Below, piece after piece: positions 1 to 28,351 of a DNA stretch of 64,000 nt. The notes under the pieces are model-generated. The model saw nothing but the letters and a program-made list of their open reading frames with translations. It was not told where the DNA came from and made no database searches. Both the position numbers and the translations under genes were made by a program. Location: the NCBI RefSeq assembly GCF_947623445.1, contig NC_135241.1:1118501-1182500 (forward strand), in the 5' to 3' direction. The stretch is from Clavelina lepadiformis. Its lineage: Eukaryota > Chordata > Ascidiacea > Aplousobranchia > Clavelinidae. How positions within the stretch are numbered: the stretch's first letter is position 1; each line of letters opens with the position of its first letter.

Positions 1-3000
1 CAAAAAAGCAATAATTAGTTTAAGACAATTTGTGTGAGATCACTGGATAGAAAAATGACAATATTTCCACGAAGTTTTATGCATTTCAAATGAATAGAGA
101 AGTTTCATGATCGGTATTACAAGGCAAATAACAATCTATTAAGACTGCTTGTGAACTGCATTGATAGTACCTTGCTCGATGTGTCCGCTATTGTGGGAAC
201 ACTGTATTCATCTTTCTTGTTATTTTCACCCTCATTCAACCTCCCTAGAGCTCTTCCCCTTATCATCGCCATAGCGATCAGTGTGAAAACAAATCCACCG
301 CTCTGTGTTTCCACCACAAGGTTTTATTCAGTAGAAAATTTATTGCTTATTCTTAAATATCTTCAGCGCCCAACAAAACAATACGTTGCTAACTGCAAAG
401 GAAATTGTTTCAAAGCTACGACTTGATTGCTGCCCCATTAATAATTTAGAAGGTGCGTTATATTTGTCATTCCTTGGCTGTTTTTCATCTCTTTAAAAAC
501 AAAAACTCGCAACGCCCAAATAATCTTTCTTCTAAGTTCCTTTAACCACGTTAAAAATGGTTTCCTTCAAAATAAATTTGTAAAAGATTTTAAAATTTTC
601 TTTGCCTGCGTCATCTTTCTTTGGTTCCACTTTCAATTAAAATATTCTAAGTGAGTGAATATAAAATATAAAATATAAAATATTCTGAGTGGAAAAGTGC
701 AGCGAACGACAAGAGTTTGTCTGTCTGCGTTGACCAATTGCTTGTGTTTTGTAAACGCAACAACTTTTGATGTTTGCGCTAGAAGCTATATTCAAACTTC
801 CGGTGGATGTACAGATTGAAAGAAAGGTCTCTTTCGCAAATAACTTGACTTGCATAAGCAGGTATAAGGTAAAAGAACCTAAAGACAATAAATAACCTAC
901 AACGTTGCCCACATATAGTGATCCGAGCATCTGCACACACGAATCAAATGAATTCAAATAAGGGTAGCTTCTATAAACCAAACGAATAACCTTGAACGTC
1001 ACAGTGTCTCATACCTACAATGCAAGCTCGTTTGAACGGAAATCGCTGCAACTTCAAATAAGATCTTGTATCTATGAAATATTTATGCGAGATAGGAAAA
1101 TGCTGCTGGGAAATTTCCCAACATTTCTCCATATTGCGCCCCTTGGGGTCGGGCTTTGATCTGCGTTCAATTGTGTCTCGATTATCTGCAAACGCAATCA
1201 CAAAAAACACAAATTATTTTGCCATTTTCGACATAAGTTGTTTTTTGTGTTGGCGTTTAAAGCAACCAAATATTCATACCAAAGTATGACAATAAAAAGT
1301 ATATGGAGTGCATAACGAAAATGATTTTAAAAAGAAATTTTAAGATGAACTGAATATTTTATAAGGATTATTTCTATTCATATTGATCCAAGGCCAGGGG
1401 AAGTTGCCAGACCTAAATAAAACTGGGAAAAATCTTTTTCTTGATCGTTAACTCGATAAAATTTGGCACCGATGCCGACTCATTCCATTCACTAGATTTT
1501 TGTTAAAAACATGGATTTCTTTGCTTTCTAGTCACTTACATGGCAGCTTTTACCAATACCTCTCGATCAACGTACGCCAAGCCGTGTTAACTAGAATTTG
1601 AAATCACTCTCGGCCGCTACTATGTGCTGCTACCTCCCATCACGTAATCACCAAAAGAAAACATAAAAAGAAATAAAGTGTCACTGAGTTGCTGTAATTT
1701 TCCTGTAAGCTCATATGCTGTCATTCGACTCGATACCTCATCATTTCAAGGGCGAGAGCGAATAACGTTTTCCCTCACCACTACACGACTACAAACATGT
1801 TGAACAACATGACTTTCCCCTCTACTGTAATAAGAACGCTTCGTTATCCCACGAGACCAAGGTTGTTTCCTACTGCTTCGAAATAAAATGTAGCTGTAAT
1901 CGAAATCTGGTGCAGCAAAGGGTTCAGTTCACACAATAGCTAAGAGAGAGCGCTCTTGGATTCAAGTTGTTGAAACATGTAACAAAGACAGCCATGTTTG
2001 TACAATATCCTACCACAGCTTAATATTTCTTCACTGATGCTCTGAAAACGTGCGAGTGTTTACTTTTAATTTTCAGTTTATCTATCATTACAAAAAAGAC
2101 CCATTTAAGGTTTTTTGTTTGACTTAACGACATCAACTACCTGACTATATCAGACAATTCCACATGACGTTTGTTTATCCCATTGTTCCGTCAGACACAA
2201 TAGCAATGCAGAAGCTACCGCTCGTATTTTCTGCAAAGGAGGCTTTTTATTACGTCACATTCGGCTAAGTATTCAGTAGGTCTTACACTTTTAGCAGCTC
2301 GCAAAGAAATTATATTTCTTTCCCGCCAAATAGGGTTAGCGACGATTTCCGATATTGCCATAGCAACCCATTCTCTTCTAGGTCAGATTTCTTGGTTGCA
2401 ATATTTGTCACGGGGCAAGCTTATTACGTCATTATTTAACTGTGATATTGTTTGAAATTATTTTATAACGTTATTATCATGCGATTAAAAAACGTTTCGC
2501 AAAATTTATGACGTCAATAATTTCTGTGTGGTGGATGATGACGTTGCATAGGTGGTTATGAAATGAGCGTTGCGCTCAACCGCAAAGTTTATTTGTCGTG
2601 AAGTTCGAAAACTTGTGAAGTGAATTCAGAGTCTTAGCGATGAATCTTTAGACGCGGTGATATTTTCCACCCCAGGCTACAAAGATGACTTGGCTACAAA
2701 CGGAGCTCAATTAAGTGTTGAACAATTAGCAGTTACAACAACAAAAAGTGGCTGACTCTTAATTTATCTGAAATTGCACATTAAGAATACCAACAATATT
2801 TTCTTTCTCCGTTTTATAAATTCTACTATTACGTCACTATGTCCATCCCCCCACTTAAGGTACTTTCGAATGTCGACCTGCAATAAATCACTGACAGCAT
2901 TATTTTATGTTGAGGACCGAACGTAATGTTGAAGCCAGTTGGGAAAAAAGGTCAAAGTTGAAACGAAGCGAAAAGAAAAAGACCAAAAGAAGCTGATTTC

Positions 3001-4800
3001 GTCAAAAACAAATTATCAGTGGATCAATATTAACACTCAATAACCTCCACATCATACAATACCGCCGCTGGTTTAGTTTATGGTCAATGTGGTCAAGCCT
3101 ACTTCGTAGCGGATATCATGTTACTCCCACTGGGTTTCACATCCTCACGCGTTTTCCGGTGTTAGCTTGATTAGGATCATGACAAGAAATTTACAATCTC
3201 AAAAATGATGAAAAATCAATTCCACTTATCAATTATAATTCATTATCGTTTTTAGCGCTTAAGTAAAGCTTCGTGCTTCTTGATGGAGAAAACTCAAGTT
3301 GTGACGTATACAATTGAAGTGGGACGTTATTAATGTGTGAATATATTCACGGAATGAGATCAAGTTGTGCAGATAAATTATTGATATATTTTGCCAAAGA
3401 CGTTCCTGATTCAATTTACGCGCGACCCCTTAACCCTACATCTTTTTATGATTATTTGCCCATAATGTGAAGATTTTAAACTGTGTGGTTATCTCTCCAA
3501 ATTACAAGGAATAACGTTTTGGAAAATCGAAAGACTGTTTGTAAATAGACTCCATTCTGCCATCTAACGAGCTCGCTTTATAATTTCTTATAAGCAAATA
3601 ACTACAAACTTCACCAAAATTGAGCAGCAAGAAGTATGAAGAAAAACATTTATTGATGAATTTGAGATGGTAAATAGTTTTCTGTTCTTTTTTTAAAGTT
3701 ATTGGATTAAGAGTCAGCAACAAAATAGGCTGGATGTTCAAAATAAAAAAGGTTGGTTTCCTTCTGAAGAAACTTTAAAAATCGTAATTTAAGTTCAATT
3801 GATGTTTAATCTCTGCAGATAATCGGGTTGTTCGGTGACATAATGCCTCCGAACGAAGGTTAGGTTTACTGGAGCAACAAATGCAAACCGCGTGGTGGCG
3901 CAAGAGATCAAGTAAAAAGTACTGAAGTCTTTTCGAAGTCTTTGTTTAAGATCATTTTTATGAATGGCAAGATCACATCAAAACCGGGGAAGAACCTAAC
4001 TTATAACTTGCACTCTTTCATCTTTCTTTATCCGTTGATTGACTTCAGCCGGAAATGTGTTTGCCGTCAACGTCGTGAAAAAACATGATCAATAAAATCT
4101 ATTTTAGTTTAAGTTATTCATCATAATAGCTAGGTTCGATGTTAACAATGCATAAATTTTGTCCTAATAAGTTAATCCGCTTTGAATTTTTGAGGCTTTG
4201 CTAGAATTCCTATTCAGATTTTTAAAGGATCATGTCAAAATTTTCATTCGTCGAAAACCTTGGAAACGAAAGAAGCTGTTTATCTTGTGACGTATAAACC
4301 GAAAAAGTTATCTAGTAAAGCGGATATGACGTCATCACTCGCTTTTCATTTGTTTTCCGGTTTTACTATCCGGGAAGACAATTAATGTCGTATCTACACC
4401 AGAAATTTTTTCAAAATTTTCAAACGAATTTAAAAATATTTCGCGTCACAATAGACTTCGGTTTCGGATTTTGCGGGAACAGAAGATAAGAAATTCGATC
4501 TGGGGAAACGGGAAATCTTCTTTGCTTGATTTCTATTTTAACATCGTGCCAGATTAAAGAATAACAAATATTGTAGATTCTTTAAATCAATTTCTTGACA
4601 AACAAATCCGATAAGAGACAACCGCTACCGAAGTTAATTAATATTTAACTATTAAAGCCTTTTATGACGTTTATGATGCTAACTATAGGGTTTAATCCCA
4701 TATCCGCAGTTGTAATCCGGTTCGAAAAAAGTCTGATGAAATATTTCCTTCTTTAGATCAACATCTTATTATCACTTTCACTTCCGTAGACGATTTAAGA
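1..4800. other. Intergenic, no gene recognised
   Basis: No reading frame here has splice-site support or a recognisable domain; the short open frames look like chance in AT-rich DNA. The only notable content is several TGACGTCA-type palindromes and many ACGTCA half sites between 2.1 and 2.9 kb and near 4.3 kb, listed separately. The last few hundred bases are probably upstream control sequence for the cytokine-like gene at 5.1 kb. Confidence 0.5.
2509..2516. promoter_or_regulatory. CRE/ATF-type palindrome TGACGTCA
   Basis: Perfect 8-base TGACGTCA. The same palindrome occurs at 4327-4334 and 6779-6786, and ACGTCA/TGACGT half sites are frequent around 2160-2840. CREB/ATF proteins bind this sequence. 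Function here is inference only. Confidence 0.3.
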
Positions 4801-4842
4801 AAAATTATGAGCTCAAATTTTACTTTTCAAACACCCCCCTTC

Positions 4843-4853
4843 GGGAAATTTCC
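4843..4853. promoter_or_regulatory. NF-kB/Rel-type site GGGAAATTTCC
   Basis: Perfect 11-base palindrome that fits the Rel/NF-kB consensus. It lies about 150 bases upstream of a TATA box and 245 bases upstream of the start codon of the cytokine-like gene. It is followed directly by GGGATC, so TTTCCGGGAT also resembles a STAT half-palindrome. The sequence match is direct; regulation is inferred. Confidence 0.5.
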
Positions 4854-5000
4854 GGGATCATAAAATAGAAAGTTTTTAGATTTTTGTTTTGTTATTTTGT
4901 CGATCAGATTCTGTTACTACGAAACCGAAGATATTTTTCATCCGAAAAGATATTCTCGCAACAATGCGAACAAACAAAAGAGTAATGCCGGCAGGTTTGG

Positions 5001-5010
5001 TATATATAAA
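5001..5010 (+). promoter_or_regulatory. TATA box of the cytokine-like gene
   Basis: TATATATAAA lies 88 bases before the ATG at 5098. Transcription would start near 5030-5035 and leave a 5' leader of about 65 bases. Confidence 0.6.
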
Positions 5011-5097
5011 GCGTTTGGAGAAGACAGGTTTCACCACAAACACAAACAGCATCTTGGAAAGTGTCCAAACAATCCTGGAAATTATTTGAAAAAAAAG

Positions 5098-6255
5098 ATG
5101 AAGAGTTTGTTGATGATTTCATTCCTCCTGCTCGTCTGCCAAGTCCATGGCGGGAATCTGTGGTCCTGTGAGCACAGACCTCAACACATCAGGAACAGAT
5201 GGCTGGACAATCTAGCTTGCATCTTCATCAACCTAAGTCCAGATAAAGTGAATCAAGGTGTTATAAAGGTGAAAACTTTCAACTTATCTGTAATATGAGA
5301 ATCAACTTCTAGATAAAATTGCTAAACATTTAGCCATCAAAAATGTTGAAATTTAGCGATTAAAATGAGCTTAAATTTAAAGAAATAAAAATCAAATTTT
5401 CAGGATGTCGATGAAACTCAAATTGAAACTTTGTGGCTCAACGAAGACAAAAAGAATCAAGTTTATGCTGAATACGGGAGCGAAGGTGTTGTGGTGGCGG
5501 AATTCTCTCGCGTCTGCTCCTGGATAGAAAGAACTTTCAATCATTTAAATGTAAGTTGGATTAACAGAATCGGCTTCATTTTTATGCGCTCTTGATGGTG
5601 AACTAAATCTCTCTTCAACGCCAGTAGGAGCAAAATATATTAACCCAAAGCAAAATAAAAGCAAAATTATCACGATATTTTCGGCAATATATTCCAATAT
5701 AAAACGCCAAACACAATATCATGGTATCTTAATCCAATAAACGTTTGTGCTCGTTGTAAAGGGGACGGGTGAGGAAGAATGCATAAAACCACATTCCCAA
5801 TGGACACCCCAGCAACAACAGGTTGGGATCGTTTAAATAATTTGGCTCAGAAGTTTAGGAAGTATAAAGTAGAAATCATTTCTAAAACGTATCACATTTG
5901 ATGATGCGTCGACATCTTATAATTCAAAACTTTTCTTAAAACCAGGGCCGTTGTTCCCCACATCCCCTCAAGAGTCGTTGTCTGAGCAACATGAAAGGTC
6001 CATGCAGCAGATTTCTGTTGAAGAAACATGAGGTTAGATTTTTTCAATCGAGTTTAAATCAACTGTGACGTTTACTTTTAAATTTCTTATTTTAAACCAA
6101 TTAACAACTGCCACGTCATCATACTCTTATTTTTGCAGCATTTGCGAAACAAATTGAAAACTAAATTTCCCGACTTACTTCAACTGGACACTTTCCCGCA
6201 CCCTTGTGCTTTGTTTTCGCCTTACATTAGAAATCATATAATTAAGTTTTGGTAA
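5098..6255 (+). CDS. Small secreted protein, candidate helical cytokine
   Basis: Four exons: 5098-5268, 5404-5550, 5946-6032 and 6139-6255 (stop). All three introns have GT-AG ends and lie exactly between codons (phase 0). The product is 173 residues. Residues 1-19 form a strong signal peptide (MKSLLMISFLLLVCQVHGG), and the mature part is about 155 residues with seven cysteines. Each exon carries one plausible amphipathic segment; the last ends in CALFSPYIRNHIIKFW. Small secreted proteins of this size with one helix-sized segment per exon and only phase 0 introns match the known gene layout of class I and II helical cytokines (IL-2/IL-4, IL-6, interferon and IL-10 types). No family signature is clear: the last exon only faintly recalls the CAW-containing final helix of fish and mammal interferons. 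It is not IL-17 or TNF. An AATAAA lies at 6467. The gene model is fairly secure; the cytokine assignment is inference. Confidence 0.72.
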
Positions 6256-6466
6256 AATTTACTTGTCATTTTACGCATGACTGATCTTGCTGGAGGGACA
6301 GAAACCGTGCAAAGTCGCCTTTTTATATTGACCTTTTCCCGTCGTATCGATTGTTTATTTATTAACGTCATAATCGAATGATTTATACTGGTGCTGACTC
6401 ACCATGAGTGAGCATTTTATTTATTGTGTTTTGACTTTGGCGAAAACTTTAGGGTTTCCAAGAAAA

Positions 6467-6472
6467 AATAAA
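6467..6472 (+). terminator. Poly(A) signal of the cytokine-like gene
   Basis: AATAAA about 210 bases after the stop codon at 6255. Confidence 0.45.
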
Positions 6473-6837
6473 ACAAAAAAATCAGCATTTTTCGTGTGAT
6501 CTCTGTTCATCTGATACGAGTAGGTTTCGAAATTCTTGAATTTTTTTTGATCACACTTGCACATGTTAGAGTAATTTTGATTCAAACCAGCCAGAAGCAA
6601 ACAGGTAAGTTCGAGAAAGATTATTTCGCTCTTTATGGGATCTTTCCAGAATGAGCCTTATTTATTCAAAGAACTTTTTATTTTCCACCATCGCTACATT
6701 GTTAGATTGTGTTTATTTGATTATAAGGTGGTAATTTTTGAACTAGATAGTTTTCTCTGTAATCTTGCAATGACATGATGACGTCACTCAATATGAGTTC
6801 AACAGACTACGAAAAAAATTGCTCAAGATTTGAAAAG

Positions 6838-6843
6838 TTTATT
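6838..6843 (-). terminator. Poly(A) signal of the netrin-G-like gene
   Basis: AATAAA on the minus strand, about 70 bases past the stop codon of the netrin-G-like gene. Confidence 0.5.
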
Positions 6844-6913
6844 TAAATGCAAAAAAATACAAGTTCAAAGCGAAGCCGTTAAATTTTCAACAAGTGCGAT
6901 TGCATAAAAGAAC

Positions 6914-9900
6914 TCAAAAACTGGAAAAGGGAGAATTGAATAAAATTGTTTGGAGGGTTAACCACGTAACTAAAATCCAGGAAGACTTGAATGTGGACTC
7001 CATCCCTCCACCTGGCGGATCCAACGATGGGGTAATTTCGTTCTTCTGCCCTTTTGACGAAGTGTAGATAAAATTGTTTGAAAACTAGTTTTATAGAATT
7101 AGTTCAGTTAGCTAGTTTCCTCATATTTTACCCTAGGGCAGTGGTTTCCAAACTTTTAAGGTACGTTATGGTACGTCAGTAAAAATCCGCGGCATCCTAA
7201 ATAAAGTTTAAGTTTTTCCGAGTTTTTTTATGGGCACTGGTACTGTCAAAAAGATCCACCTCTTAAAGCAAAATAAAAAATTTAAAACAGTTTTTTAGGT
7301 GATTAAAAGACTACGCTGCAAATCCTGTGCTTTGCCATTAATCTATGGACACCTCTGTTGGGAAACACAACTCTATAGACAAGTGCCACGACAAGACGCT
7401 CTTTTATCATTCGGAAACGCAACGCATTGTGCAGCCACCTTAAAACTTATTACCCTCACTCAAGCATTCTTGTCTTTCGTTGCTATGGTAACCGTCCAAG
7501 CATCGATTGCACTTGCGTCCGGTGTAAGGAATCCTGCAGCGACATCTACCGCTCGGTTGACACCACAGTGAGCGGCTTCCCTGGGGGTGGCAGGAACAAG
7601 CTGAGTAAAGATCGACTTCTGGTTAATTATTTCGTAACAATATGGTCAGGTCGATAGTTAAAGCAGGAGCAGCATGCTGCTGACGAATGCGATAACGATT
7701 GTGTTGTGATATTTATGACAAGCAAAATATGAAAGCAAGAATGCTGATTTAACTTTTTAACATCATTCTAACTTTAGCACGTTGCTCTAGGTATTACACC
7801 GAACAAACTGCAGATAACTTTAATTGTGATGAAAAATTCAAAAATCGCCATATAAACTCAGTTTACCTTTGCAGATGTCCGGGTCATCGAGTGAGGTGTT
7901 AGGTCTTTTGTAGAACTCCTGTCGACAATAATAGCAGTTTCTTCCTTCTGTATTATGACGACAGTCAACGCACGTGTTTCCGAATCCTGTCAAGACTTCA
8001 CATCTCTCCGAATGACGATTACAATTGCAAGAGTAATTGAATGCGACCGCATGATGGCGCAAGTACAACGCTCTCCTCTCCGCGTACCTTTCCAGGATCC
8101 CTTCACCTAGAATGATTCTTACGTCACAATGCTTACAGGTGATCCTTTTACCTTATACCAGGAGACTTTATCATTTTATACACAAAAATTTAACTCGTAA
8201 GTCTAAGTTGGCTACATAGCAGGTCACTGCCCAATTTCCGGTATTTACGGATTTTTAACAACTCACACAGTGGAAATTATCTTCAGCCAACTCACATTTA
8301 TTCGCTTGGCCTGGATCGTTTCGATTGGATGAGAATTGACCCGGTTTCCATTTCCTCATCCAATACAATGTTTTACATTTTTCGCATTCAAGACCATCTG
8401 TATTGTGACGACATAGACAGTGATGTATGTCACCATTTTTCGCGTAGCTACCCGCGTGTCCATTGCATTCACATCTATTATGATGTAATAATTTTGTATA
8501 TAATAAACTCTTTTGTGACGTAATACTTAAATCGCGAATCAACCTTGCCGAAATGCGGATCGTGTCGATTCCGTAGTGTCTCGACCTATTCGCGATTTTT
8601 CTGGGCGTTCCGGGAACGCTGTTCAGGATAGGAGGTCGCAGAAGCCTAATTCGGAGGTTGGTGATGTGAAGGAAAGACTTGAGTGAGCTACTACTCCGCA
8701 TGAGGGCAGCGCAAAGCTCAGCCTGTCAAGACGGAAATAATTATAGGGGAATCACCTATTTGGTTACTTCAAGTTAAATTAATTTTCTGAAAATACAATG
8801 ATTGAAATTATCGTTTTAAAACGGACTTCTGACAAAAATAGCGAGAACAATCTCCTCGATATATCCACAGACGCCATCGAATCGAGTTGATCTCTATTCC
8901 TGCTGTACTCTTCGCTACAGATAGGCTGGAAGGCGTTCTTGCGCGGCAGAACATCCAGATTGTCGCTAAACATAAACGGTTGTTGATGAACTTGCTTCAT
9001 CTTAACTATATAGGGTGAAGTGCTGACCTATGTTCAAGTCCAAAGTCTTTTCTACAATCGTCTGAATAATATTCCATGACAGACCAACTCTTTCCGAAAT
9101 CTGACGACTTCTCGATCATCATTTTCTGAGGTCGTCCGTCAGAGAAAAATATTTGAATATCATCTGTGACGTAATAACACGTCATAAAGCGCCTGTATTT
9201 TTACGACTGCATATATGTGCTTCTGCAGAACGGCAGACGATGACGTAATAAAAATGGGAGTCTTCGAATAACGTACTGTAGCCTATATTTCCTACATTTG
9301 CTAACTTTTTTCTACAACATGCATTTAAATTTAAAATCATAAACGGTGATTGGACGTTAAGTCCAGACATCTGCACCAAAGAATCTGGTGCGATCCAGGC
9401 AGCTACGGCAGCCTATAACCAATAACCTACGGCAGCAACATCTAGCGCTGATGCGAAGCAGAATATCTCCGACAAAATAAATTTCAACAATACCTGTTAG
9501 TATGAAGAGTTTAGGAAGATTGATGGTGACGTTGATTTCTGGACTTTGATCATCGGCGAAGACGACGCTTTGCCACCATTTCCACTTCACCCCATTCACC
9601 ATGTGCTCGGTAGGATGGCTCAAGCTCCTCCTGCTAGCGTCGCAAGTACGACATCTTGTCGGGTTGTTCTACGAATGAAACTCAATCAGCACGCTACGTC
9701 ACAGACTGTCAATTATGACATCTCAAGTTAAGTACTTTATCAAAGCGACGAGAATTTGGGTATTAGAATAAATAACGAAATTTGGAGCACACGTTTACAT
9801 AAGCCTATACTGTTTTAAGAATTCTGGGTCTTTTATAATGTAATAATGCCAACCGTTGGCACGTGACCTAAGTGCGGGCCGAGCAGGCCTCAACCGCTAA

Positions 9901-13157: not shown

Positions 13158-15226
13158 CTAAATACAATCAGCATCTTCACCATCATACCACCAATTCTTG
13201 ATTGACTTCACTTTCATTTCTTTCATTGTCTTCATCACAATCACTTCATCATCTCCCTCATCCCGGCTGGAACCAGCATCCAGATAAATCGCTTGATGCG
13301 ACATCGGTCCAGTGTCAATGCCATGCAAATGTCGACACAACAGACAATGACCAGTCACATGGAGTTGGTGCTTGAGTAAGAAATCATCATCTTCAAGTAA
13401 TTTGTCTCTCCATGCAAAGTACTCTTTGTAGGCCGTGCCGTTTGAGTCCAAATAGTTTAAATAATCGACCAACGCTTTGGGGCTGTCGAAGTCGTCTGTG
13501 TGGATGAAGGAATGTGGAGGCGCAACCGCTTCGTAATTCTCTCGTCTTGGTCCGGTCACAACCGGTACGGTGCCAGCAGCCAACCCGTGACTGTAGAATT
13601 TTTCAGTGATATAATCTCGGCAGTGATAAGAGTTTTCAAATGAAAAGTAGAACTTGTATTTATGTAGCGTGCTTAAAAACGCATCAGTTCCTCGACGCAG
13701 AGTCATATCTCTGTGAAAGCATCTGTAACAAAATAGAACAATTTGTGGCTTGGAAAATAAGCGATGAAATGTCATTATATTATAGCTACCTCCCAGCCAC
13801 ATCGATTTTTAGTCCAGCCTTTGTCAAGTTTCGATACAAATCCATTCGTCGTTTCGCACCTGATGATCCACCACAGTTGCTGACAATCCAAACACCGAAA
13901 CGCGTTTTATTCTTCTTGTGAAGGTCTCTATACTTCATAATTTGTTTCTTAATCTGTTCGCTAGTAGTGTAGGGCTTGTAAAAGTCGGAGTCCCTCCTGA
14001 GAAACAGAATTGAAGTGAGCATAAACAACAAACCGATAAACCGCCGATGATTGTATTAATCTCGTGCAGACCTGTAAGTCTCAGTTGCATTGAAGTAGTT
14101 CTCCTCGAAGTCATCGAGTTCAACATTCTTGAGATTGTGGGTGTTTGGTGGCGATTCTGCGTTTCTCCAAATATAAAGTTGGTCAGGACGTCTATGAAGA
14201 ATAACAATAAATAAAGCATAACACAAGATAAACAAATCAGTCATGACGTCAGTTATTACCTTATATGGTCAGGGGGCATATTTGAACGCTGACCACAAGC
14301 TTTATTAAAAACAACTGCAGCAGTATCAGGATTCGATATCTGCGTGATACTTGCGTAAATAAGCCAAGTGTTGTTGATGTTCGCATGAAGTAAAATCTCG
14401 CAAATAATTTAGTAAGACAAGAGTCACACATTAAAAGCACAAGTACAAAAACTATTTTTAAAGACTCTTTATTTTTCTCAGCAAAGAATCAAACATACCA
14501 AAGATCTGTCATCTGTTACTTTACAGCTTCCACATCTTCTATCGGTAACTCCAGTAAGGGAACTCTTCGTCGGAGGGCACCACTCAAGAATGATCTACAG
14601 GAATCAGGTTAAAATATTTCAAAGTATATGGATAAATAAAATGTCAGAAGTTAAGCTCAGAGAAATTGACCTAATGGTTCATGCGCCCACTAACGGTCGG
14701 TTTTTAATCACGCTGCAGCCTACGTTTTGTTCTCAGAAAATTTCAGCATTAAAAATCGCCTGCGTTAGCTGGATTAAGTTAGCGTTAGCGTTTGCCTATG
14801 TTAGCTGGATTAAGTAAAGGTTAAACTGTGAGTAGAAGAGGAATTGACAAACCTGTTTTTAAAGTTAACCATAAAGCATTTACCGCATACAACAATAAGA
14901 TAACTTAACTATAGATGCACCGTATATGTAAACATATAACACCATAATATTTTTAAAGTAACCTTTCTTTTAAGAGAGGCGAAGTGTAATGCTTCACGTA
15001 AAGTCATTCTTCTTCCATCTTCTTCATGTTTGCCGACTGATGTGTTCTCCAGTGATTGTGCAAAGAATGGAAATGATGATGCATTGAACAGTTTTGTGGC
15101 AAAGTTTGTATTCGGTGAGAAAGTTCTCAGTATAGCATCGGTGCTTGCTTTAGAAATCCAAAGACCAGCGATAGAAAAACAACAGATTAAAGCAAAGCAC
15201 ACAGCAATGGATGATAATCGACGCAT
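13158..15226 (-). CDS. Alpha-1,3-fucosyltransferase, GT10, paralogue 1
   Basis: Six coding exons in transcription order: 14963-15226, 14499-14594, 14260-14339, 14072-14191, 13790-13996 and 13158-13722, giving 443 residues. An acceptor right before the ATG (exon from 15229) implies an upstream non-coding exon. Type II Golgi membrane layout: short tail MRR, membrane anchor over residues 4-24, then stem and GT10 catalytic domain. FGVWIVSNCGGSSGAKRR and YFSFENSYHCRDYITEKFY match the GDP-fucose-binding core of alpha-1,3-fucosyltransferases, followed by GTVPVVTGP and YFAWR. The enzyme should add fucose to N-acetylglucosamine of glycoproteins or glycolipids. Human family members carry an HHRD-like motif where this has AVVFNKACG. 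Exon 2 is the divergent part among the three paralogues: here ILEWC is followed by PPTKSSLTGVTD. It is inverted relative to the other two copies. Confidence 0.88.
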
Positions 15227-19496: not shown

Positions 19497-21463
19497 ATGC
19501 GTCGATTATCATGCATTGCTGTGTGCTTTGCTTTAATCTGTTGTTTTTCTATCGTTAGTGTATGGATTTTTAAAGCAAGCACCGATGCTATACTGAGAAC
19601 TTTCTCACCGAATACAAACTTTGCTACAAAACTGTTCAATGCATCATCATTTCCATTCTTTGCACAATCACTGGAGAACACATCAGTCGGCAAACATGAG
19701 GAAGATGGAAGAAGAATGACTCTACGTGAAGCATTACACTTCGCTTCTCTTAAAACAAAGGTAGTTTTAGAATGATATTATATGATTAAAAAATTGATTT
19801 ATTTAAGTGACTTTCTTATTGTTATATATGCTTTATATACCATTATACTCATGGTAGCATACAAAGCGTGACTCTCCATGCTGGTCCCCCTCCCCACTAT
19901 CAAGTTTGTAGTCTGCAAAATGCATCAGGTCATCTGACAAAGATGTGTCATACATTTTGCTGAGTTTTATCAATTTAATGTTTCGCTTTACCGTATATAC
20001 TTTGAAAAATTTTAACTTGATTAAAACAGATTATTCTTGAATGGTGCCATCCGAAGGCTTCTCCCCATGGCGTTGATGAAAGAAGATGTGGAAGTTGCAA
20101 AGTAACAGATGACAGATCTTTGGTATGTTTGATTCTTTGCTGAGAAAAATAAAGAGTCGTTTAAAATAGTTTTTGTACTTGTGCTTTTAATGTGTGACTC
20201 TTGTCTTACTAAGTTATTTGCGAGATATTACTTCATGCGAACATCAACAACACTTGGCTTATTTACGAAAGTATCACGCAGATATCGAATCCTGATACTG
20301 CTGCAGTTGTTTTTAATAAAGCTTGTGGTCAGCGTTCAAATATGCCCCCTAACCATATAAGGTAAGAACTGACATCATGACTGATTTGTTTATCTTGCGT
20401 TATGTTTTATTTATTGTTATTCTTCATAGACGTCCTGACCAACTTTATATTTGGAAAAACGAGGAATCGCCATCAACCACCCACAATATCAAGAATGTTG
20501 AGCTCGATGACTTCGAGGAGAACTACTTCAATGCAACTGAGACTTACAGGTCTGCACGAGATTAATACAACCATCAGCGGTTTATCGGTTTGTTGTTTAT
20601 GCTCACTTCAATTCTGTTTCTTAGGAGGGACTCCAACTTTTATAGACCTTACTTGGCTAGTGCGCAGAATAAGAAACACATTATGATGTATAGAGGCCTT
20701 TACAAGAAGAATAAAACGCGTTTCGGTGTTTGGATTGTCAGCAACTGTGGTGGATCATCAGGTGCGAAACGACGAATGGATTTGTATCGAAACTTGACAA
20801 AGGCTGGACTAAAAATCGATGTGGCTGGGAGGTAGCTATAATATAATGACATTTCATCGCTTATTTTCCAAGCCACAAATTGTTCTATTTTATTACAGAT
20901 GCTTTCACAGAGATTTGACTCCGCGTCGAGGAACTGATGCGTTTTTAAGCACGCTACATAAATACAAATTCTACTTTTCATTTGAAAACTCTTATCACTG
21001 CCGAGATTATATCACGGAAAAATTCTACAGTCACGGGTTGGCTGCTGGCACTGTACCGGTTGTGACCGGACCAAGACGAGAGAATTACGAAGCGGTTGCG
21101 CCTCCACATTCCTTCATCCACACAGACGACTTCGACAGCCCCAAAGCGTTGGTCGATTATTTAAACTATTTGGACTCAAACGACACGGCCTACAAAGATT
21201 ACTTTGCATGGAGAGACAAATTACTTGAAGATGATGATTTATTACTCAAGCACCAACTCCATGTGACTGGTCATTGTCTGTTGTGTCGGCATTTGCATGG
21301 CATTGACACGGGACCGATGTCGCATCAGGCGATTTATCTGGATGCTGGTTCCAGCCGGGATGAGGGAGATGATGAAGTGATTGTGATGAAGACAATGAAA
21401 GAAATGAAAGTGAAGTCAATCAAGGATTGGTGGTATGATGGTGAAGATGCTGATTGTATTTAG
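19497..21463 (+). CDS. Alpha-1,3-fucosyltransferase, GT10, paralogue 2
   Basis: Six coding exons: 19497-19760, 20030-20122, 20282-20361, 20430-20549, 20625-20831 and 20899-21463, giving 442 residues. Intron positions and phases (0, 0, 2, 2, 2) are the same as in paralogues 1 and 3. An acceptor at 19492-19493 shows that a non-coding first exon lies upstream. Residues 1-27 are a short cytoplasmic tail plus membrane anchor, and the rest is the luminal GT10 domain with the SFENSYHCRDYITEKFY core and a DDE-rich tail ending DADCI. Expected role: Golgi transfer of fucose from GDP-fucose. Exon 2 reads ILEWCHPKASPHGVDERRCG, differing in length and sequence from the other copies while exon 6 is almost the same. 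All exons are open, so the gene looks functional. Confidence 0.9.
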
Positions 21464-26355: not shown

Positions 26356-28351
26356 ATGCGTCCATTATCATGCATTGCTGTGTGTTTTGCTTTGCTCTTT
26401 TGCTTTTCTATCGCTGGTCTTTGGATTTCTAAAGCAAGCACCGATGCTATACTGAGAACTTTCTCACCGAATACAAACTTTGCTACAAAACTGTTCAATG
26501 CATCATCATTTCCATTCTTTGCACAATCACTGGAGAACACATCAGTCGGCAAACATGAGGAAGATGGAAGAAGAATGACTCTACGTGAAGCATTACACTT
26601 CGCTTCTCTTAAAACAAAGGTAGTTTTAGAATGATATTATATGATTAAAAAATTGATTTATTTATGTTATATTGAATATATATATTTCCTATAGTTTTAT
26701 ATGCTTTACATACCATTATACTCATGGTAGCATACAAAACGTGACACTCCATGCAGTCTCCTGCCCCGCCATCAAGTTTGTAAGTCACCATCATTAAATT
26801 GACAAAACTCAGCAAAATGCATCAGGTCATCTGACAAAGATGTGTCATACATTTTGCTGAGTTTTATCAATTTAATGTTTCGTTTTACCGTATATACTTT
26901 TATAAATTTTAACTTGATTAAAACAGATCATTCTTGAATGGTGCAGTTCGAAGGCTTCCCCGAATGAAAGAAGATGTGGAAGTTGCAAAGTAACAGATGA
27001 CAGATCCTTGGTATGTTTGATTCTCTGCTGAGAAAAATGAAGAGTCATTTGAAATAGTTTTTGTACTTGTTCTTTTATTGTGTGACTCTTGTCTTAACAA
27101 GTTAATTGCGAGATATTACTTCATGCGAACATCAACAACACTTGGCTTATTTACGCAAGTATCACGCAGATATCGAATCCTGATACTGCTGCAGTTGTTT
27201 TTAATAAAGCTTGTGGTCAGCGTTCAAATATGCCCCCTGACCATATAAGGTAAGAACTGACATCATGACTGATTTGTTTATCTTGTGTTATGTTTTATTA
27301 ATTGTTATTCTTCATAGACGTCCTGACCAACTTTATATTTGGAGAAACGCAGAATCGCCACCAAACACCCACAACTTCAAGAATATTGAACTCGATGACT
27401 TCGAGGAGAACTACTTCAATGCAACTGAGACTTACAGGTCTGCACGAGATTAATACAATCATCGGCGGTTTATCGGTTTGTTGTTTATGGTCACTTCGAT
27501 TCTGTTTCTCAGGAGGGACTCCGACTTTTATAAACCATATTCGGCTAGTCGGCAGATTAAGAAACAAATTATGAAGTATAGAGACCTTCACAAGAAGAAT
27601 AAAACGAGTTTCGGTGTTTGGATTGTCAGCAACTGTGGTGGATCATCAGGTGCGAAACGACGAATGGATTTGTATCGAAACTTGACAAAGGCTGGACTAA
27701 AAATCGATGTGGCTGGGAGGTAGCTATAATATAATGACATTTCATCACTTATTTTCCAAGCCACAAATTGTTCTATTTTATTACAGATGCTTTCACAGAG
27801 ATTTGACTCCGCGTCGAGGAACTGATGCGTTTTTAAGCACGCTACATAAATACAAATTCTACTTTTCATTTGAAAACTCTTATCACTGCCGAGATTATAT
27901 CACGGAAAAATTCTACAGTCACGGGTTGGCTGCTGGCACTGTACCGGTTGTGACCGGACCAAGACGAGAGAATTACGAAGCGGTTGCGCCTCCACATTCC
28001 TTCATCCACACAGACGACTTCGACAGCCCCAAAGCTTTGGTCGATTATTTAAACTATTTAGACTCAAACGACACAGCCTACAAAGAGTACTTTGCATGGA
28101 GAGACAAATTACTTGAAGATGATGATTTATTACTCAAGCACCAACTCCATGTGACTGGTCATTGTCTGTTGTGTCGGCATTTGCATGGCATTGACACGGG
28201 ACCGATGTCGCATCAGGCGATTTATCTGGATGCTGGTTCCAGTCGAGATGAGGGAGACGATGAAGTGATTGTGATGAAGACAATGAAAGAAATGAAAGTA
28301 AAGTCAATCAAGAATTGGTGGTATGATGGTGAAGATGCTGATTGTATTTAG
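26356..28351 (+). CDS. Alpha-1,3-fucosyltransferase, GT10, paralogue 3
   Basis: Six coding exons: 26356-26619, 26927-27010, 27170-27249, 27318-27437, 27513-27719 and 27787-28351, giving 439 residues. Same intron phases as paralogues 1 and 2. The protein has an N-terminal membrane anchor and a complete GT10 domain. Its last exon differs from that of paralogue 2 by two residues by eye (D/E and D/N). Exon 2 is three codons shorter than in paralogue 2 (ILEWCSSKASPNERRCG). The first intron contains a hairpin at 26792-26877 that is truncated in paralogue 2. Expected role is Golgi fucosylation, perhaps with different acceptor preference. All exons are open. Confidence 0.9.
26792..26877. repeat. Hairpin element in fucosyltransferase 3 intron 1
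   Basis: Arms of 28 bases (26792-26819 and 26850-26877) are inverted repeats with one mismatch around a 30-base loop. In paralogue 2 only the right arm and loop remain (near 19915-19985). It could be a tiny foldback element or a hairpin RNA source. Confidence 0.6.

Follow-up and report, generated by a model that had tools for sequence, protein, structure and literature searches.

A candidate gene for a small, secreted, predicted helical protein in the ascidian Clavelina lepadiformis, and a class II cytokine receptor gene on the same chromosome

The window – the 64,000-nucleotide stretch of DNA analysed here, C2:1118501-1182500 of a genome of 209,060,895 bases in 95 contigs – contains at positions 5098-6255 a candidate gene of four exons and three introns on the plus strand. 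An earlier note on this DNA had described four exons separated by introns of phase 0, and the gene model bears this out: all three introns (3/3) are of the GT-AG type, and every exon length is divisible by three, from which it follows that all three lie in phase 0. Exon 1 (5098-5268; 57 codons) encodes the signal peptide and the first predicted helix (mature residues 11-26), while exon 2 (5404-5550; 49 codons) encodes a predicted acidic helix followed by a strongly amphipathic one (mature 65-88). Exon 3 (5946-6032; 29 codons) contributes three cysteines and the beginning of a predicted helix at mature 107-126, which exon 4 (6139-6255; 38 codons plus the stop) finishes before adding the last helix. 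The splice acceptors of exons 3 and 4, ACCAG and TTTTTGCAG, are good, and a polyadenylation signal, AATAAA (6467-6472, plus strand), lies after the exon 4 stop.

The next gene in the window (7440-9668, minus strand) is netrin/laminin-like, with laminin N-terminal and laminin-type EGF domains recognised by Pfam. Three near-identical frames for the C-terminal part of a family 10 fucosyltransferase (13158-13802, minus; 20819-21463, plus; 27707-28351, plus; Pfam was run on the first copy) are found in mixed orientation, an arrangement that suggests recent local duplication. Several thrombospondin type 1 repeat-like stretches, one of them tested by Pfam, occupy both strands between about 34000 and 45250.

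The candidate gene encodes a precursor of 173 amino acids. Its hydrophobic N-terminus reads by inspection as a cleavable signal peptide, with cleavage at VHG|G, and this stretch is conserved in a decayed copy of the gene (below); the claim of the earlier note that the protein is secreted with a signal peptide is upheld to that extent, and the 155-residue mature chain with seven cysteines that it described is recovered from the translated exons. The chain has a mass of 18.3 kDa and a pI of 9.0, and its cysteines stand at mature positions 6, 23, 77, 91, 100, 108 and 140. Cysteine 95 of the precursor is tryptophan in the decayed copy; the remaining six could form three disulfides. A single N-glycosylation sequon is present, but is doubtful because a proline follows it. 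Lysine and arginine are concentrated in a stretch at mature 106-126, and elsewhere charge is not gathered in one helix. The suggestion that each exon carries an amphipathic segment survives in part: among 18-residue windows taken at every third position, exon 2 gives a helical moment of 0.58 (mature 70-87), whereas exons 1, 3 and 4 have maxima of about 0.35-0.37.

Structure prediction from the single sequence of the mature chain (AlphaFold2) places helices at 11-26, 30-33, 43-51, 53-63, 65-88, 107-126, 139-143 and 145-154, with zero strands, at low confidence (pLDDT 38.4 and 38.7 in two runs); prediction from the precursor was much like that from the mature chain. The confidence of this predicted model is too low for fold assignment, and searches with it (pLDDT ~38) using Foldseek and VIA-align gave no significant match. 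At the level of sequence, a Pfam scan of the protein returned zero families at E <= 10 (the HMMER filters discard most matches above about 0.1) and a search of PDB sequences likewise returned none at E <= 10; similarity to cytokines was found in neither.

How far the gene model can be trusted differs between its two halves. Measured against 119 stop-free non-coding stretches, the codon usage of exon 2 is coding-like, with one of the 119 scoring equally high; exon 1 gains weak support (22/119 equally high), and exons 3 and 4 are not coding-like, 99 and 102 of the 119, respectively, scoring as high or higher. These comparisons use a codon table trained on just 996 codons, and the exons are short. 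A second line of evidence comes from the genome itself. Searched twice by protein, the whole genome yielded this gene and one broken copy; given that such searches score the best candidates only, the candidate gene appears to be the one intact copy found. The broken copy (C2:4185860-4187918, plus strand; positions 4861-6919 of locus L007) lies on the same chromosome, 3.1 Mb from the gene, and has exons 1 and 2. It is without the GT after exon 1 and without the AG before exon 2, and carries about 1.2 kb of additional DNA in intron 1; it keeps the AG acceptor of exon 3, ends a few codons into that exon, and exon 4 was not found at the copy locus. The lost splice sites of intron 1, the extra DNA and the break in exon 3 indicate that the copy is probably dead now.

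Comparison of gene and copy shows that DNA identity in the coding exons (144/168 in exon 1, 125/147 in exon 2) compares with 640/793 in the upstream DNA, 66/91 where intron 1 begins and 319/393 within intron 2. The pattern of insertions and deletions is more telling. Across 1,277 aligned non-coding bases there are 26 indels, 20 of them frame-breaking; the 315 coding bases contain a single indel, a 3-bp deletion, and hence no frame-breaking change where the flanks would predict 4.9 (P ~0.007), a comparison biased towards intact stretches because the copy came from a protein search. The absence of stops from the exons of the copy is not significant (P 0.09 under neutral drift). Over 105 codons, with one unmatched codon excluded, dN/dS is 0.54 (bootstrap range 0.26-1.15, with values of 1 or more in 5.4% of bootstraps); taken by part, it is 0.15 for the signal peptide, 0.64 for the remainder of exon 1 and 0.65 for exon 2. 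The ratio is thus not clearly below 1, and constraint in the mature part is weak. Taken together, exons 1 and 2, whose frame is preserved in the copy, are probably more than chance and the first half of the gene has reasonably good support; the second is defined by its splice sites, its open frame and the polyadenylation signal, and has no comparative support from the own-genome copy, which stops in exon 3.

The flanks of the gene hold several elements of potential regulatory interest. A TATA box, TATATATAAAGC (5001-5012, plus strand), lies 97 bp upstream of the ATG, and the copy has TTATATAAAGC at the corresponding place. Some 245-255 bp upstream of the ATG is the word GGGAAATTTCC (4843-4853, plus strand), which we take to be kappaB-like and which is altered in the decayed copy; a second such word, GGGAAATTTCC(C), occurs about 4.0 kb upstream (1108-1119, strand unspecified). 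Counted by strand over the whole genome (209 Mb), the word is hit 135 times and a reversed control word 38 times, so that it is 3.6 times commoner. From its rate alone, the chance of a site at most 260 bp away is about 0.0002, a figure to be read in the knowledge that the word was picked post hoc. The 11-base GGGAAATTTCC was not found as a whole word in the open-licence papers searched. Matches to the standard 10-base kappaB pattern are confined in the window to 10291 and 29338, neither near the gene, and the 35 TTCNNNGAA sites counted across it do not clearly exceed the 26.7 expected by chance, that total being attained in 9 of 100 shuffles.

Downstream of the coding sequence, the 215-nt 3'UTR contains two AU-rich element nonamers, TTATTTATT, at 6355-6363 and 6417-6425 (both plus strand). 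Two UUAUUUAUU nonamers are found in 122 of 43,562 overlapping background stretches (0.28%) and in 74 of 22,348 stretches of the same length matched for G+C (0.33%); the pattern TTATTTAWW is itself enriched across the whole window (21 against 11.5 expected from shuffles). A third TTATTTATT nonamer, at 6658-6666, lies past AATAAA and so falls outside the 3'UTR as drawn. The combination of a TATA box, an upstream GGGAAATTTCC and two UUAUUUAUU nonamers hints at an inducible, short-lived message.

The genome encodes at least one cytokine receptor that would suit such a ligand. A class II cytokine receptor gene (C2:5375204-5377653, plus strand; positions 2705-5154 of locus L031) lies on the same chromosome as the candidate gene, 4.25 Mb away. 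Its joined exons match the Pfam families Tissue_fac (2.8e-12) and Interfer-bind (6.8e-9), and among proteins of solved structure it comes closest to IFNAR1 (3.9e-8) and IL-10 receptor beta (IL-10RB; 2.6e-7). The product has a signal peptide and domains D1 and D2, followed, by inspection, by a transmembrane-like segment and an extended tail; the tail exons and the exon that links D2 to the transmembrane part are less certain. Introns 1-4 have phases 1, 2, 1, 0, as is usual in class II receptor genes. When the genome was searched with the receptor ectodomain, that locus alone was returned at E <= 10. The genome also encodes a STAT.

The profile searches that bear on receptors and ligands gave a mixed return. 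The PF01108 profile hit seven places, of which three were looked at: two of these (C2:5375486 and 5375811) become the one class II receptor once exons are joined, and the best-scoring, C8:116532, was set aside, reading as a long fibronectin-repeat gene; class II receptors therefore number at least one. The PF09294 (Interfer-bind) search gave 12 places, seven of them above the cut-off; of eight loci whose open frames were inspected, four (L015, L016, L017 and L019) were rejected because they resemble standard fibronectin type III exons. At L015, the one put to Pfam, the fn3 family (7.4e-9) beats Interfer-bind (1.2e-4). The class I receptor profile PF09240 found nothing in the genome, a negative of little weight. 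On the ligand side, genome searches with the IL10 (PF00726) and Interferon (PF00143) profiles gave zero matches each, from which absence does not follow. With a class II receptor present and no match to either ligand profile, the genome holds a receptor without a recognised ligand.

Of the explanations that we have weighed, the likeliest – though a tentative one – is that a fast-evolving tunicate gene here encodes a small, secreted, alpha-helical protein whose role is that of an inducible, short-lived signal. According to this reading, the gene would be switched on in stimulated cells via its TATA promoter and upstream kappaB-like site, and the two AU-rich nonamers would shorten the life of the mRNA; expression and induction are inferred. 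The cysteine-bridged protein, perhaps folded as a helical bundle, would then bind a cytokine receptor coupled to JAK/STAT, for which the clear-cut class II receptor encoded here would be the natural first candidate partner. Several observations count against this reading: the promoter and 3'UTR words were spotted post hoc and are also present in genes that do not encode cytokines, TTATTTAWW being enriched across the whole window, and to these must be added the lack of cytokine similarity in the Pfam and PDB searches, the pLDDT of 38, a dN/dS interval that extends to 1.15 with weak constraint on the mature part, the non-significant absence of stops in the copy, the codon usage of exons 3 and 4, the presence of four and not five exons, and the 4.25 Mb that separate gene and receptor.

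Many of the same features would be expected of a lineage-specific secreted defence effector – cationic, cysteine-bridged and helical – which acts on microbes or host tissue and shares the same immune switches, with no cytokine receptor involved. The signal peptide, the seven cysteines, the pI of 9.0 and the rapid divergence between gene and copy all fit such a protein, and the kappaB-like word and AU-rich nonamers suit any inducible immune gene. Yet, except in the Lys/Arg-rich stretch at mature 106-126, charge is not gathered in one helix; no known family is matched in Pfam; and typical antimicrobial peptides are shorter than 155 residues. We regard a defence effector as possible but rather unlikely. 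The protein might instead have no immune role and be a secreted helical protein of another sort – a carrier, an inhibitor, or a protein of gametes or matrix – whose sequence has drifted past recognition. This explanation, which we place just behind the effector and also think unlikely, accords with the lack of a family match in Pfam and PDB and with nameable neighbours – laminin-like, fucosyltransferase and thrombospondin-repeat genes – none of which is immune; the run of three phase-0 introns carries little weight as a cytokine trait, such introns being common. Against it stand the pair of AU-rich nonamers in so short a 3'UTR and the rarity of the GGGAAATTTCC found upstream. Least probable of the three alternatives is that the second half of the model is wrong or the gene decaying, with exons 1 and 2 real and exons 3 and 4 chance open frames: the non-coding-like codon usage of the latter two (matched or beaten by 99/119 and 102/119 non-coding stretches) and a sole copy that breaks at exactly that point speak for it, but both exons have good acceptors and in-phase lengths, the exon 3 acceptor is retained in the copy, nonamers and AATAAA follow within 217 bases of the exon 4 stop, and the codon scores come from short exons and a table of 996 codons.

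Returning to the inducible signal, a bolder version would have the candidate serve as ligand to the class II receptor of tunicates, which would make it an interferon/IL-10-like cytokine from beyond the vertebrates. As a ligand for that receptor the protein is a reasonable, unproven candidate; the full claim we consider improbable. It would matter if true. Among the open-licence papers listed in literature searches, titles and abstract beginnings showed no described tunicate helical cytokine; extracts from published accounts report one class II cytokine receptor in Ciona (PMC3210801), state in a 2017 review that interferon genes were not observed in tunicates (PMC5298971) and, in one study, locate no IL-6 superfamily members in invertebrates (PMC8226699). 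Were the candidate the missing ligand, the interferon/IL-10 system would predate the vertebrates and could be tested in a sea squirt, and a working axis of helical cytokine, receptor and STAT would be placed in the ancestor that tunicates and vertebrates share. Should the ligand lie elsewhere, the receptor gene together with the promoter and 3'UTR criteria can still guide the search for it in this genome.

Comparison with known cytokine families yields likenesses and differences in each case. With the IL-10 family and interferons the candidate shares small size, secretion, predicted helices (at pLDDT 38) and introns that are all in phase 0 (3/3), and its genome encodes a class II receptor and a STAT. 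Among other helical cytokine genes, other exon numbers occur. Passages from one source give six IL-10 family genes and IFNL1 an identical five-exon structure, and note a five-exon form for the class I genes IL3 and IL21 (PMC2654155); the candidate has four. It differs from the IL-10 family and interferons also in its seven cysteines and in matching neither PF00726 nor PF00143; many true members escape such profiles, so the missing match merely lowers the claim to membership. Class I short-chain genes of the IL-2 and IL-4 type resemble the candidate in having four exons, all introns in phase 0 and a similar size. Their exons run in the order long, about 20, long and about 35 codons, whereas those of the candidate have 57, 49, 29 and 38 codons, the short exon being the third (29) and not the second, and Pfam gave no sequence match to these cytokines. 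Ligands of Dome/GP130-type class I receptors, such as Drosophila unpaired, also come into consideration: genomic searches of Ciona gave a GP130-like and a CLF-3-like receptor, both of class I (PMC1963337). The candidate is without sequence match to such ligands, and the PF09240 result for its own genome is given above.

The tunicate IL-17 proteins are likewise small secreted cytokines of the same genome, in which the profile PF06083 found 13 places, showing that small cytokines are detectable here. IL-17 is a beta-rich cystine-knot protein; the candidate has no PF06083 match in Pfam and no predicted strand. The IL-17 family itself is expanded here: its places form groups on C7, C9, C4 and C2, and a single one lies on C3.
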